This document shows positions 51,817 through 58,450 of a DNA stretch of 64,000 nt, piece by piece (position 1 is the stretch's first letter; every line of letters starts with the position of its first letter). The notes under the pieces are model-generated. The model did not search any database. It was not told the origin of the DNA and saw only the letters and a program-made list of their open reading frames with translations. Source of the DNA: Streptomyces albidoflavus. GTDB lineage: Bacteria > Actinomycetota > Actinomycetes > Streptomycetales > Streptomycetaceae. The stretch lies in NCBI RefSeq assembly GCF_000719955.1, contig NZ_JOII01000013.1:1-64000 (forward strand), in the 5' to 3' direction. The position numbers and the translations under genes are program-made.

Positions 51817-51966
51817 TTACGCCCGGACGCCCTCGTACGCGTGGTTCTCCAGGGCCTGGGGTGCGTCGAGGTCGGCCGCCTCGCCCCGGTGGAGGGCGAT
51901 GCCGGAGTGCTGTGTGACGGGGAGAGGGTGGTCGGACGTGCAGGTGAAACCAGGATCACGGGTCAT
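51817..51966 (-). CDS. Small ORF of 49 residues upstream of argC, opposite strand
   Basis: Starts MTRDPGFTCTSDHPLPVTQH and ends ALENHAYEGVRA. Codon choice is strongly GC-ending in the second half, as expected for a real gene, but no good SD is present. A CAAGCT hexamer lies eight bases before the ATG. I recognise no family. It is divergent from argC, so its promoter would lie next to the ARG boxes. Confidence 0.4.
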   Translation of the reverse strand: MTRDPGFTCTSDHPLPVTQHSGIALHRGEAADLDAPQALENHAYEGVRA

Positions 51967-52020
51967 GGCGCCGGAGCTTGAGCGGCGAGCGCGCGGTCAC
52001 CGCCCCGCCCACACCCCTCA

Positions 52021-52049
52021 TTGCATAAACGTGCACCTATGCGTATAGT
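52021..52049 (+). promoter_or_regulatory. argC promoter with overlapping ARG box
   Basis: TTGCAT (52021-52026), 17 bases, TATAGT (52044-52049): a near-consensus sigma-70/HrdB promoter. Inside it GCATA (52023-52027) and TATGC (52038-52042) form an inverted repeat like actinobacterial ARG boxes, the sites of ArgR. Arginine-loaded ArgR bound here would cover both promoter elements and repress argCJBDR. Confidence 0.78.
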
Positions 52050-52061
52050 CATGCCACCTAG

Positions 52062-53102
<1,041 letters not shown>

Positions 53103-53219
53103 GCGGGGCGCGGGCGGCGGACCCGGGCGCGCACCCCGTACGGGTGGCGCCCTGAACCACGCCCCGGGCCCACGCGGGCGCCGGGGTGGAAGAGGCCGGA
53201 AGGCCGGAAGGAGAAGACC

Positions 53220-54371
53220 GTGAGCGTCACGGCAGCACAGGGATTCACCGCGGCGGGCATCGCCGCGGGCATCAAGGCGAACGGCAACCCGGACCTGGCC
53301 CTCGTGGTCAACACCGGCCCCCGCCGATCCGCTGCGGGCGTCTTCACCGCCAACCGCGTCAAGGCCGCGCCGGTCCTCTGGTCCGAGCAGGTCGTCAAGG
53401 ACGGGCAGGTCGCCGCGGTCGTCCTCAACTCCGGCGGCGCCAACGCCTGCACCGGGCCGCAGGGTTTCCAGGACACTCACGCCACCGCCGAGAAGGTGGC
53501 CGAGATCCTCGGTGAGGGCGCGGGCGACATCGCGGTGGCCTCCACCGGCCTCATCGGCGAGCTGCTGCCGATGGACAAGCTGCTGCCCGGTGTCGAGACC
53601 GCGGCCGCCGCGCTCAGCGCGCACGGCGGCGAGAAGGCCGCCATCGCGATCAAGACCACCGACACCGTCCACAAGACGGCCGTCGTCACCGGCGACGGCT
53701 GGACCGTCGGCGGCATGGCCAAGGGCGCGGGCATGCTCGCCCCCTCCCTCGCCACCATGCTGGTCGTCCTCACCACCGACGCCGACCTCGACAGCGACAC
53801 CCTCGACCGGGTGCTGCGCGGCGCCACCCGCACCACCTTCGACCGCATCGACTCCGACGCCTGCATGTCGACCAACGACACCGTGCTGCTGCTCGCCTCC
53901 GGGGCCTCCGGCAAGGCCCCCGGCGAGGCGGAGTTCGCCGAGGCCGTCCGCACCGTCTGCGACGACCTGGCCCGCCAGCTCATCGGCGACGCCGAGGGCG
54001 CCAGCAAGGACATCCGGATCGAGGTGACCGGCGCCGCCAGCGAGGAGGACGCCGTCCAGGTGGGCCGCACCATCGCCCGGAACAACCTGCTCAAGTGCGC
54101 CGTGCACGGCGAGGACCCCAACTGGGGCCGGGTGCTCTCCGCCATCGGCACCACCGACGCCGTCTTCGAGCCCGACCGGCTCGACGTGGCCATCAACGGT
54201 GTCTGGGTCTGCAAGGACGGCGGCGTCGGCGAGGACCGCTCGCTGGTCGACATGCGCTACCGCGAGGTCACCATCACCGCCGACCTGCACGCGGGCGACG
54301 CCTCCGCGGTCATCTGGACCAACGACCTCACCGCCGACTACGTCCACGAGAACAGCGCGTACTCCTCCTGA
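53220..54371 (+). CDS. argJ: Ornithine acetyltransferase/N-acetylglutamate synthase
   Basis: 383 residues. [14 protein letters not shown] contains the self-cleavage site before Thr179, which becomes the nucleophile of the beta chain. [12 protein letters not shown] and [15 protein letters not shown] are conserved. It recycles the acetyl group from N-acetylornithine to glutamate, and may also make N-acetylglutamate from acetyl-CoA. GTG start with GGAAGGAG upstream, 117 bases after argC. Confidence 0.97.
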
Positions 54372-54426
54372 CCAGGAGAGCGCCCGGCCCGCCCGGCCGA
54401 CCCGGACCCGAAGGACGCCCGCACCC

Positions 54427-55322
54427 ATGAGCACCCGCAAGCACACCGCCCTGCCCAAGGCGCAGATCCTCGTGGAGGCGCTGCCCTGGCTCACCCGGCA
54501 CCACGGCAAGACCGTCGTCGTCAAGTTCGGCGGCAACGCCATGATCAACGAGGAGCTGAAGGCCGCCTTCGCCCAGGACGTCGTCTTCCTGCGCCACGCC
54601 GGCCTCAAGCCCGTCGTCGTGCACGGCGGCGGCCCGCAGATCAACGCCCAACTCGACCGGCAGGGCCTGGTCAGCGAGTTCAAGGCCGGACTGCGCGTCA
54701 CCACGCCCGAGGCGATGGACGTCGTCCGGATGGTCCTCGCCGGCCAGGTCCAGCGGGAGCTGGTCGGCCTGCTCAACCAGCACGGCCCGCTCGCCGTCGG
54801 CCTCACCGGTGAGGACGCGCACACCATCACCGCCACCAAGCACCAGCCGCGCATCGAGGGCGAGCTGGTCGACATCGGCCGGGTCGGCCAGATCACCGAG
54901 ATCGACACCGGCGCCATCGAGGCCCTGCTGGAGAACGGCCGCATCCCGGTCGTCTCCTCCATCGCCCGCAGCGCCGACGACGACCACGTCTACAACGTCA
55001 ACGCCGACACCGCAGCCGCCGCCCTGGCCGCCGCGCTCAACGCCGAGACGCTCATGGTCCTCACCGACGTCGAGGGGCTCTACGAGGACTGGCCCCACAG
55101 CGACGAGGTGATCAGCCGCATCACCGCCACCGAGCTGGAGAAGCTCCTGCCCGACCTGGCCAGCGGCATGGTCCCCAAGATGGAGGGGTGCCTGCACGCC
55201 GTGCGCAACGGCGTCACCACCGCCCGCGTCATCGACGGCCGGGTCCAGCACTCCATCCTGCTGGAGATCTTCACCGACGAAGGCATCGGCACCATGGTCG
55301 TCCCGGACCCGGAGGAACTCAC

Positions 55323-55326
<4 letters not shown>
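54427..55326 (+). CDS. argB: Acetylglutamate kinase
   Basis: 299 residues. [16 protein letters not shown] at the N-terminus, [47 protein letters not shown] and [16 protein letters not shown] are hallmark sites for ATP and N-acetylglutamate. The N-terminal helix before the kinase core (about residues 1-25) is the feature of the hexameric, arginine-inhibited form, so feedback control by arginine is expected. Start ATG 54427; the stop overlaps argD (GTGA). Confidence 0.97.
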
Positions 55327-56563
<1,237 letters not shown>

Positions 56564-56567
<4 letters not shown>

Positions 56568-56593
56568 GCCGCAGAACGGGACGACGACGATGA
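56564..56593 (+). CDS. Arginine-rich 9-residue leader ORF between argD and argR
   Basis: ATG at 56564 inside the argD stop (ATGA), encoding MSRRTGRRR with codons CGC, AGA, CGA, CGA, CGA for its five arginines. Its TGA overlaps the argR start (ATGA at 56590). AGGGGGA precedes it by three bases. AGA and CGA are rare in high-GC Streptomyces genes. The overlap on both sides couples argD, this ORF and argR translation. A regulatory leader peptide is an inference. Confidence 0.5.
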
Positions 56594-57123
56594 GCCAGGC
56601 GCACGAGAACGAGAGCGCCCAGGCGGTGCCGCAGACCCGCACCGCCCGCCACCGCCGGATCGTGGACATCCTCAACCGGCAACCGGTGCGCTCCCAGAGC
56701 CAGCTGGCCAAGCTCCTGGCCGACGACGGACTGAGCGTCACCCAGGCCACCCTCTCCCGCGACCTCGACGAGCTGAACGCCGTCAAGATCCGCAACGCCG
56801 AGGGCGACCTGATCTACGCCGTGCCGAGCGAAGGCGGCTTCCGCACACCGCGCGCCCCGCTCGGGGAGTCCGCCAAGGAGGAGCGGATGCGGCGGCTCTC
56901 CGGCGAACTGCTGATCTCCGCCGAGGCCTCGGCCAACCTGGTGGTGCTGCGGACCCCGCCGGGCGCCGCCCAGTTCCTCGCCTCCGCCATCGACCAGGCC
57001 GAACTCCACGACGTGCTGGGCACCATCGCGGGCGACGACACGCTGATGCTCATCAGCCGCGCCCCCGAAGGCGGCCAGGCCCTCGCCGAGCACCTGCTGC
57101 GGCTCGCCCAGAACGACCACTGA
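56590..57123 (+). CDS. argR: Arginine repressor
   Basis: 177 residues. The winged helix-turn-helix is at about 17-85 ([44 protein letters not shown]). The C-terminal arginine-binding hexamerisation domain (about 105-175) contains the [12 protein letters not shown] signature with the arginine-contacting Asp pair. With arginine it represses the arg genes through ARG boxes such as those at argC and argH here. The start overlaps the arginine-rich small ORF. Confidence 0.96.
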
Positions 57124-57131
57124 GCCCCGCG

Positions 57132-57162
57132 CGCCCGCCCGCTCCCGCACCGGGGGCGGGCG
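57132..57162. terminator. Terminator of the argCJBDR operon
   Basis: CGCCCGCCC (57132-57140) pairs with GGGCGGGCG (57154-57162); the loop can extend the pairing. It begins nine bases after the argR stop. Confidence 0.65.
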
Positions 57163-57274
57163 GACGCGTACCCCAGCGGTCGACAGGGCCGTACCCCACC
57201 GGACGTAGCGGCGGCCCGTACGGTTCGCCCCCGGGGCCGAGGACGGGACGGGCCGCCCGTCCTACGCTGGCCGC

Positions 57275-58450
57275 ATGCCCTCCCCAGCCCGGAGCCGCCT
57301 CCGGCTCCCGCGAGGCCGCGCCGCCGACGCCGCCCTCGCCTCGGGGCTCTTCCTGGTGGTCGGCCTCGGGACGCTGCGCTCCCTGATCGGCGCCCGCGAG
57401 GAGCCCTGGGCGGTCACCGCCGCCAACTGGGTGCTGATCGCGGTGGCCTGCGGCGCCCTCTACTTCAGCTCCCGCCGCCCGGTGGCCGCCGCCTCGGTCG
57501 CCGCCCTCGCCACCGCCGTCTACTACGTCACCAGCGCCTACGACGGGCCGCTGCTGCTCGCCGTGGTGGTGGCCCTCTTCCTGGTGGCCGCCGCCGGACG
57601 GCTGCACGCCGCCGTGGTCATCGCCGCCCTCTGCCTCCTCGGCACCGCGCTGGGCACCATCCGGGGCAACGGCGACGTCAACCAGGTCGCGCTCTTCATG
57701 CTCACCGGCTGGTTCGTCGCCATGATCACCCTCGGCGGGCTCCGCCACAGCCACCTCGCCCGCGCCCGGGAGACCGAGGAACGGGCCGCTGCCCAGGAAC
57801 GGCTGCGGATCGCCCGCGAACTCCACGACGTGGTCGGCCACCACCTCTCCCTCATCAACGTCCAGTCCACCGCCGCCCTGCGCCGCCTCACCAAGGACCC
57901 CGCCGCCGGGGCGGACCAGGCCACCGAGGCGCTCGGCGCCGTCAAGGACGCCAGCCGCGAGGCCCTGCGGGAACTCCGCGCCACCCTCGGCGTGCTGCGC
58001 GAGGCCGGGGAGGCCGCGCCGACCGCGCCCGCCCCCGGCCTCGGCCGGCTCGGCGAACTCACCGACGCGGCCGGCGCCGCCGGCCTCGCCGTCACCGTCC
58101 ACCGCACCGGCGACACCGGGCCGCTCCCGGTCGAGGCGGACCTCGCCGCCTACCGCATCGTGCAGGAGTCGCTGACCAACGTCGCCCGGCACGCCCGCGC
58201 CACCCGCGCCGACATCCACCTCGACGGCGTCGGCTGCCGGCTGACCGTCACCGTCACCGACGACGGGCGCGGCCCGGCCGCCGACCCCGCGCGCACCGGC
58301 CCGCCCGGATCGGGCATCACGGGGATGCGCGAGCGCGCCCGCGCCCTCGGCGGCGACCTCACCGCCGGACCCGCCCCGGGCGGCGGCTTCAGCGTCCGCG
58401 CCACCCTGCCACTCGCCCGTACGACCGCCACGGAGGAACCCCGCCGATGA
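57275..58450 (+). CDS. NarL-type membrane sensor histidine kinase
   Basis: 391 residues. Five or six N-terminal membrane helices (about 18-155) with almost no periplasmic loop suggest sensing within or at the membrane. Phosphoacceptor His184 is in RIARELHDVVGHHLSL (HisKA_3 type). The ATPase domain has NVARHARA and DDGRGPA; G2 is GSGITGMRERARALGG. The TACGCT box at 57263-57268 ends six bases before the ATG, so a leaderless mRNA is likely. The stop overlaps the response regulator gene. Confidence 0.92.
   Translation: MPSPARSRLRLPRGRAADAALASGLFLVVGLGTLRSLIGAREEPWAVTAANWVLIAVACGALYFSSRRPVAAASVAALATAVYYVTSAYDGPLLLAVVVALFLVAAAGRLHAAVVIAALCLLGTALGTIRGNGDVNQVALFMLTGWFVAMITLGGLRHSHLARARETEERAAAQERLRIARELHDVVGHHLSLINVQSTAALRRLTKDPAAGADQATEALGAVKDASREALRELRATLGVLREAGEAAPTAPAPGLGRLGELTDAAGAAGLAVTVHRTGDTGPLPVEADLAAYRIVQESLTNVARHARATRADIHLDGVGCRLTVTVTDDGRGPAADPARTGPPGSGITGMRERARALGGDLTAGPAPGGGFSVRATLPLARTTATEEPRR

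Follow-up and report, generated by a model that had tools for sequence, protein, structure and literature searches.

The window, the whole 64,000-nucleotide stretch of Streptomyces albidoflavus DNA that was analysed, carries an arginine operon in the order argC, argJ, argB, argD, argR, with all genes in the same direction. The names argC, argB, argD and argR are those given by NCBIfam; the remaining gene we take to be argJ, from the known gene order of the arg operon. A nine-codon mini-ORF sits between the fourth and fifth genes, not in the operon leader. The features of this junction are listed here, 'crown' denoting the Streptomyces clade described below.

55323..56567, + strand: argD, acetylornithine transaminase (NCBIfam NF002874 and TIGR00707, above curated cut-offs)
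56554..56560, + strand: AGGGGGA, a Shine–Dalgarno-like site for the mini-ORF ATG (sequence; anti-Shine–Dalgarno pairing)
56564..56593, + strand: mini-ORF MSRRTGRRR (sequence; homologues in 211 of 217 crown junctions)
56576..56578, + strand: ACG where the inner start ATG stands in most crown species (tree-ordered junctions)
56582..56590, + strand: three CGA codons abutting the TGA, the locked spacer of argR (sequence, conservation)
56590..57123, + strand: argR, arginine repressor (NCBIfam NF002880 and TIGR01529, above curated cut-offs)

The mini-ORF reads ATG AGC CGC AGA ACG GGA CGA CGA CGA TGA, with its ATG at 56564–56566 and its TGA at 56591–56593. Since the argD TGA occupies 56565–56567 and the argR ATG 56590–56592, there is an ATGA overlap at both ends of the mini-ORF. 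The coordinates and letters that the first-pass annotation had given for the mini-ORF, for both overlaps and for AGGGGGA were exact when the sequence was re-read. Pairing with the anti-Shine–Dalgarno sequence amounts to -9.4 kcal/mol for the outer ATG of the window, as against -4.6 kcal/mol for argR.

The same annotation had called AGA and CGA rare, and codon counts in the window and in a relative confirm this. Genes predicted in the window contain 20 CGA and 3 AGA among 1528 arginine codons, while in a 400-kb sample of the relative, G324, CGA makes up 3.2% and AGA 2.0% of arginine codons. The CGA/AGA share in the sampled genes is 1.5–5.2% overall, the genes having been predicted by an ad hoc caller with approximate start sites. 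No tRNA genes were found in the window.

The arrangement is unusual among the 380 predicted genes of the window and the 400 kb of G324 combined. Only the window argR has an ORF of at most 14 codons ending Arg-Arg-TGA on the gene start. A looser rule, asking for an overlapping mini-ORF with at least three arginines read from its nearest start, returned six of the 380 genes, argR and argC included. The argC candidate, MRIVMPPRRRVP at 52038–52076, ends on the argC ATG; we regard it as a coincidence, because its AGA-AGG-AGG is the argC Shine–Dalgarno site and the spacer is variable in 30 genomes. A short pattern unique to argR was also considered and rejected, since 120 of the 121 genomes searched contain TGNNNCGACGATGA, most of them at several places among the matches listed.

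A search for an attenuator hairpin revealed no unusual fold at the window junction (z +0.69), and no Rfam family was found in 51900–57300 at gathering thresholds. Indeed, there is no room for terminator or antiterminator hairpins, because the mini-ORF stop overlaps the argR start.

Two further observations concern other parts of the arginine genes. In many genomes the region before argJ (ACGATCGGAGTCGC; L452–L480) resembles the tract before argR (ACGATCCGGAGA). A second, more distant argC (73–81% identity to that of the window) and argB (59–73%) occur outside the main operon, often a few kilobases apart, in genomes G139, G122, G324, G218, G074, G015 and G012.

Distribution of the mini-ORF

Among the 392 genomes searched in the genus, 390 gave an argR match, and junctions were read from a subset of these. 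The two genomes with no match, G079 and G352, are likely to reflect assembly gaps, as one is 78% complete and the other, though 96% complete, is in 950 contigs. For Streptomyces, the junction survey comprised 310 loci, of which 276 are distinct over 85 nt; other genera contributed 90 loci, four of which (L307, L317, L318 and L319) have no usable start. The Streptomyces junctions come from 80 named loci and from further loci, and the same species may recur in both sets. In every junction, the in-frame ATG nearest to a conserved anchor, but no closer to it than 45 nt, served as the argR start.

The commonest junction, ATG-AGA-CGA-CGA-TGA, accounts for 138 of the 276 distinct Streptomyces junctions. 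It is followed by ATG-AGG-CGA-CGA-CGA (17), ATG-GGA-CGA-CGA-CGA (10), ATG-GGA-CGA-CGA (10), ATG-AGA-CGA-CGA-CGA (6) and ATG-AGA-CGT-CGA (4). On a tree of 331 loci, built from codons of the C-terminal part of argD and the core of argR, these forms group in a single crown clade (217 junctions), to which the window belongs and whose boundary was drawn after the motif had been noticed. An NTG stands at -11 or -14 before argR in 210 of the 217 (ATG 199, GTG 6, CTG 3, TTG 2).

Counting as a mini-ORF any frame that opens with ATG, GTG or TTG and ends on the argR ATGA, we found one in 216 of 222 distinct crown junctions, five of which were assigned by junction sequence and not by the tree; for tree-placed junctions only, the figure is 211 of 217. 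The exceptions, all tree-placed, are L072, L098, L108, L123, L326 and L383. At least two arginines are encoded in 212 of the 222 junctions and at least three in 208. The remaining Streptomyces have some mini-ORF in 18 of 70 junctions, 14 of them with at least two arginines and of scattered sequence. In the sister genus g11, for which 35 genomes were searched, a mini-ORF is present in 28 of 34 distinct junctions, with at least two arginines in 27 and MTRR as the commonest form (18). All other genera sampled have one in seven of 61 junctions, a single one of which has two arginines. Thus the question of conservation posed by the first-pass annotation has a positive answer: mini-ORF, arginine codons and argR overlap persist across the crown clade.

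Most crown species have a mini-ORF of four or five codons, read from an inner ATG. A second in-frame start lies further upstream in 54 of the 216 crown mini-ORFs, for example in MIRRMRRR (13). The window peptide MSRRTGRRR aligns codon by codon with M-I-R-R-M-G-R-R-R; ACG has replaced the inner ATG, and the outer one, which lies within the argD stop, is retained. The nine-codon mini-ORF of the window is a rare variant in which the usual inner ATG has been lost. L028 and L228 have an inner CTG, yet they too retain the in-frame outer ATG, which is absent from L383 and L098. The argD stop lies earlier in many crown species than in the window, and it overlaps the inner NTG in 127 of the 203 crown junctions measured. 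In L016 and L230–L232, argD itself extends to the argR ATGA, and its final codons are CGA-CGA(-CGA) before the shared stop.

Start codon, spacer and reading frame

Where the argD stop overlaps the start of the mini-ORF, an NTG could be kept for the sake of argD. However, in 84 crown junctions at least 13 nt separate the end of argD from argR, so that argD has no need of it; ATG serves as the inner start in 72 of these and another NTG in seven, leaving five with none.

The spacer behind this start is strongly conserved in the crown. Changes at the last eight spacer positions, taken relative to those at the fourfold sites of argR, gave ratios of 0.127 and 0.053 (n 173 and n 37) for the two crown length classes. 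For deeper Streptomyces with a GGAG-NTGA tract the values were 1.13 and 0.46 (n 18 and n 15). That tract is present in 42 of 59 deeper junctions, 34 of those with CTG, and the other 17 were left out; in the junctions compared, the start position holds CTG (32) or TTG (1). When length classes are ignored, the ratios are 0.15–0.22 for the crown, 1.54 for the deeper Streptomyces and 0.71 for g11. Five crown junctions (L001, L028, L098, L228 and L383) keep the spacer despite having no inner NTG, or CTG in its place.

In the crown, counted on condition of an NTG at -11 or -14, the spacer shifts between 11 and 14 nine times, always by a triplet, whereas the deeper lineages have 13 non-triplet changes and one triplet change. 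Fisher's test gives P = 0.00001, or 0.0013 if four of the seven excluded crown junctions are scored as non-triplet. Slippage in the CGA repeat alone would also favour triplet changes.

The ATGs within 40 nt upstream of argR can be sorted by where their frames lead. Those ending on the argR ATGA number 257 in the crown, 26 in g11 and 17 in other Streptomyces; those in frame with argR number 17, 3 and 12, those stopping before argR 4, 0 and 6, and those entering argR out of frame 2, 0 and 1, respectively. Of 256 junctions from the crown and g11, 238 keep the out-of-frame reading frame itself open beyond 30 nt. The distances from start to argR found in g11 (8, 11, 20, 23 and 26 nt) all result in the identical frame.

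None of these counts of start, spacer, length and ATG frame is phylogenetically independent. The start–spacer contrasts amount to few events, because the lock arose in few lineages (once in the crown, and in g11). What emerges is a mini-ORF whose start and frame are retained and whose spacer is locked together with the start, from few independent origins and with no synonymous excess. Four to six deeper lineages manage without it.

A candidate relay and the competing readings

Start retention, the locked spacer, the triplet length changes and the ATG frames are four indirect indications of translation. We infer that the mini-ORF is translated and that argR is reached by reinitiation. We think it probable, with a good deal of reserve, that the argD–argR junction is a translated relay cistron. 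Ribosomes leaving argD would begin again at the ATG within the argD stop, or at a nearby inner ATG, and read four to nine codons, nearly all of them rare arginine codons. They would then terminate at the TGA on the argR ATG and restart on argR. The mini-ORF would thereby convert the argD–argR gap into chained stop–start overlaps and set the amount of ArgR made per ArgD. The CGA and AGA codons would be expected to slow its translation, and a waiting ribosome would cover the argR start.

Reinitiation is reported to drop steeply as the intergenic distance grows (PMC10666635), and given such a dependence a relay ORF would preserve the coupling between argD and argR. In S. coelicolor an ARG box is reported to be located upstream of argR (PMC5839063), so that argR may also possess a promoter of its own; if it does, the mini-ORF would double as a leader.

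Because a ribosome held on CGA or AGA covers the argR start, dependence of the relay on charged arginine tRNA is physically easy to envisage. That the relay responds to arginyl-tRNA is nevertheless a conjecture, which we consider possible, if short of probable. The corresponding explanation of the locus, which goes back to the first-pass annotation, is that a shortage of arginyl-tRNA leads to stalling on the AGA/CGA run, covering of the argR start and less repressor, the codons having been selected for sensing. It is thus the relay with selection for its arginine codons added. We find sensing plausible as a property of the mini-ORF, and this full version of it somewhat doubtful.

The case for sensing begins with the position of end-product codons immediately before the repressor gene of the same pathway, and with their identity. 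Read from the nearest start of each crown mini-ORF, the 658 arginine codons comprise CGA 457, AGA 166, AGG 26, CGT 4, CGG 3 and CGC 2. CGA or AGA therefore make up 623, and with AGG 649, leaving five for CGC and CGG, the two common codons. There is also precedent: in Salmonella, speF responds to arginine through a pair of adjacent arginine codons in orf34 (PMC6386406), and a tandem CGG in E. coli argA has been modelled as a sensor (PMC10325894). On the other hand, orf34 is functional with frequent arginine codons too (PMC6386406), so sensing alone needs no rare codons. A bias towards CGA and AGA this remote from genomic usage (1.5–5.2% in the sampled genes) is, as far as the sequences go, consistent either with selection for slow codons or with selection on the letters themselves.

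The substitution pattern does not help the sensing explanation. Parsimony on the last two codons of the crown gave four arginine-to-arginine events against six from arginine to another amino acid; the synonymous excess sought at crown codons, as a sign of selection on the amino acid, is thus absent. Codon 2 alternates between AGA and GGA. Moreover, ACGACG precedes argR also where its letters do not serve as arginine codons in a mini-ORF of this kind, including sister genera in which no mini-ORF ends there, which implies that part of the sequence predates the mini-ORF. Without RNA structure, occlusion of the argR start would be the sole means of action. Our tentative proposal, made with more doubt than conviction, is that Streptomyces gate ArgR synthesis by a relay of four to nine codons, rich in rare arginine codons, that would stall on the argR start when arginyl-tRNA is low, so that no repressor would be produced while arginine is scarce.

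A translated mini-ORF might instead act as a constitutive throttle, in which rare codons merely reduce the expression of argR compared with that of argD, and arginine has no influence. Rare codons and a short length suit a slow step, and the two-codon axe-txe mini-ORF modulates its downstream gene in cis, where distance and frame matter (PMC8708949). We think this rather unlikely; it leaves unexplained why the codons before the arginine repressor should be those for arginine and not any rare codons.

The least probable of the explanations, in our judgement, is that the spacer is untranslated: GGAGAATGAGACGACG would be the argR ribosome-binding region, kept as letters of DNA or RNA, and the ORF a by-product of start context. 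Third codon positions are indeed conserved like the first and second, ACGACG stands before argR in genera with no mini-ORF, and the inner ATG has no well-placed Shine–Dalgarno site, as GGAG ends one or two bases upstream of it. However, the median Shine–Dalgarno energy of argR is -6.6 both in the crown and in deeper Streptomyces, and the spacer of the latter is free. A generic Streptomyces start context is rejected by the finding that ACGACG occurs before only one of the 380 predicted starts, that of argR itself, although part of it may be an old context peculiar to argR. Within one set of 30 genomes, the spacers of argC, argJ and argD are also far less conserved: modal frequencies at -8 to -1 average 0.946 for argR, compared with 0.70 for argC, 0.77 for argJ, 0.80 for argB and 0.60 for argD. 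These control values are rough, being based on 30 rows for argC, 60 for argJ and 55 for argB (one genome could supply two loci for these genes) and 29 for argD, of which a few look misplaced, and the letters upstream of argB lie mostly inside argJ. Finally, such a spacer would not account for an NTG that is retained even where argD does not require it.

Relation to known systems

Searches of one open-access library, supplements aside, listed no paper on a mini-ORF or leader before Streptomyces argR, and a search of an S. coelicolor ribosome-profiling paper (PMC4895711) for a few words yielded one passage and nothing on argR. The ArgR of S. coelicolor has been described as acting pleiotropically, its reach extending to genes for antibiotics and for differentiation (PMC5839063), which makes its dosage relevant outside arginine metabolism as well. 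If the arginine-responsive relay were true, a second, translational sensor would be layered on ArgR in the arginine control of Streptomyces. It would work without RNA structure, by chained ATGA overlaps alone, and its target would be a repressor that itself senses arginine. Such a hairpin-free design would be missed by attenuator and riboswitch searches and by gene annotation. Other regulators could then be searched for the same pattern, in which a mini-ORF made of end-product codons links two cistrons in a chain.

The closest parallels in Actinobacteria are the leader peptides and attenuators of trp, ilvB, leuS and cys (PMC1262725), which share with the argR mini-ORF a short ORF, a run of end-product codons and a following gene of the same pathway. 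The argR mini-ORF differs in being inside an operon, before a repressor gene whose start it overlaps, with no hairpin. It is therefore not classed as a trp-type attenuator: it has the codon run, but neither the hairpins nor the operon-leader position. The same 2005 survey of Actinobacteria, which scanned operon-upstream regions, reported no conserved regulatory RNA structure in front of arginine operons (PMC1262725).

In Salmonella, the orf34–speF system likewise has an upstream ORF with consecutive arginine codons, which there sense arginine (PMC6386406). However, orf34 encodes 34 amino acids in a long 5' leader, acts through Rho and through RNA structure, and is followed by a gene of catabolism (PMC6386406), whereas the argR mini-ORF has four to nine codons and overlaps the start of a repressor gene. 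The axe-txe mini-ORF (PMC8708949) and the leader genes found near starts (PMC4833913) are also tiny ORFs before an operon gene for which action in cis has been proposed. Unlike the argR mini-ORF, neither has an amino-acid theme, and the leader genes peak at 10–11 bp before the start instead of overlapping it as at argR (PMC4833913). The two ends of the window mini-ORF correspond to the ATGA pairs of termination–reinitiation (PMC10666635), with the same 4-nt overlap of stop and start. Those pairs couple two real genes, whereas between argD and argR the link is an ORF of four to nine codons.
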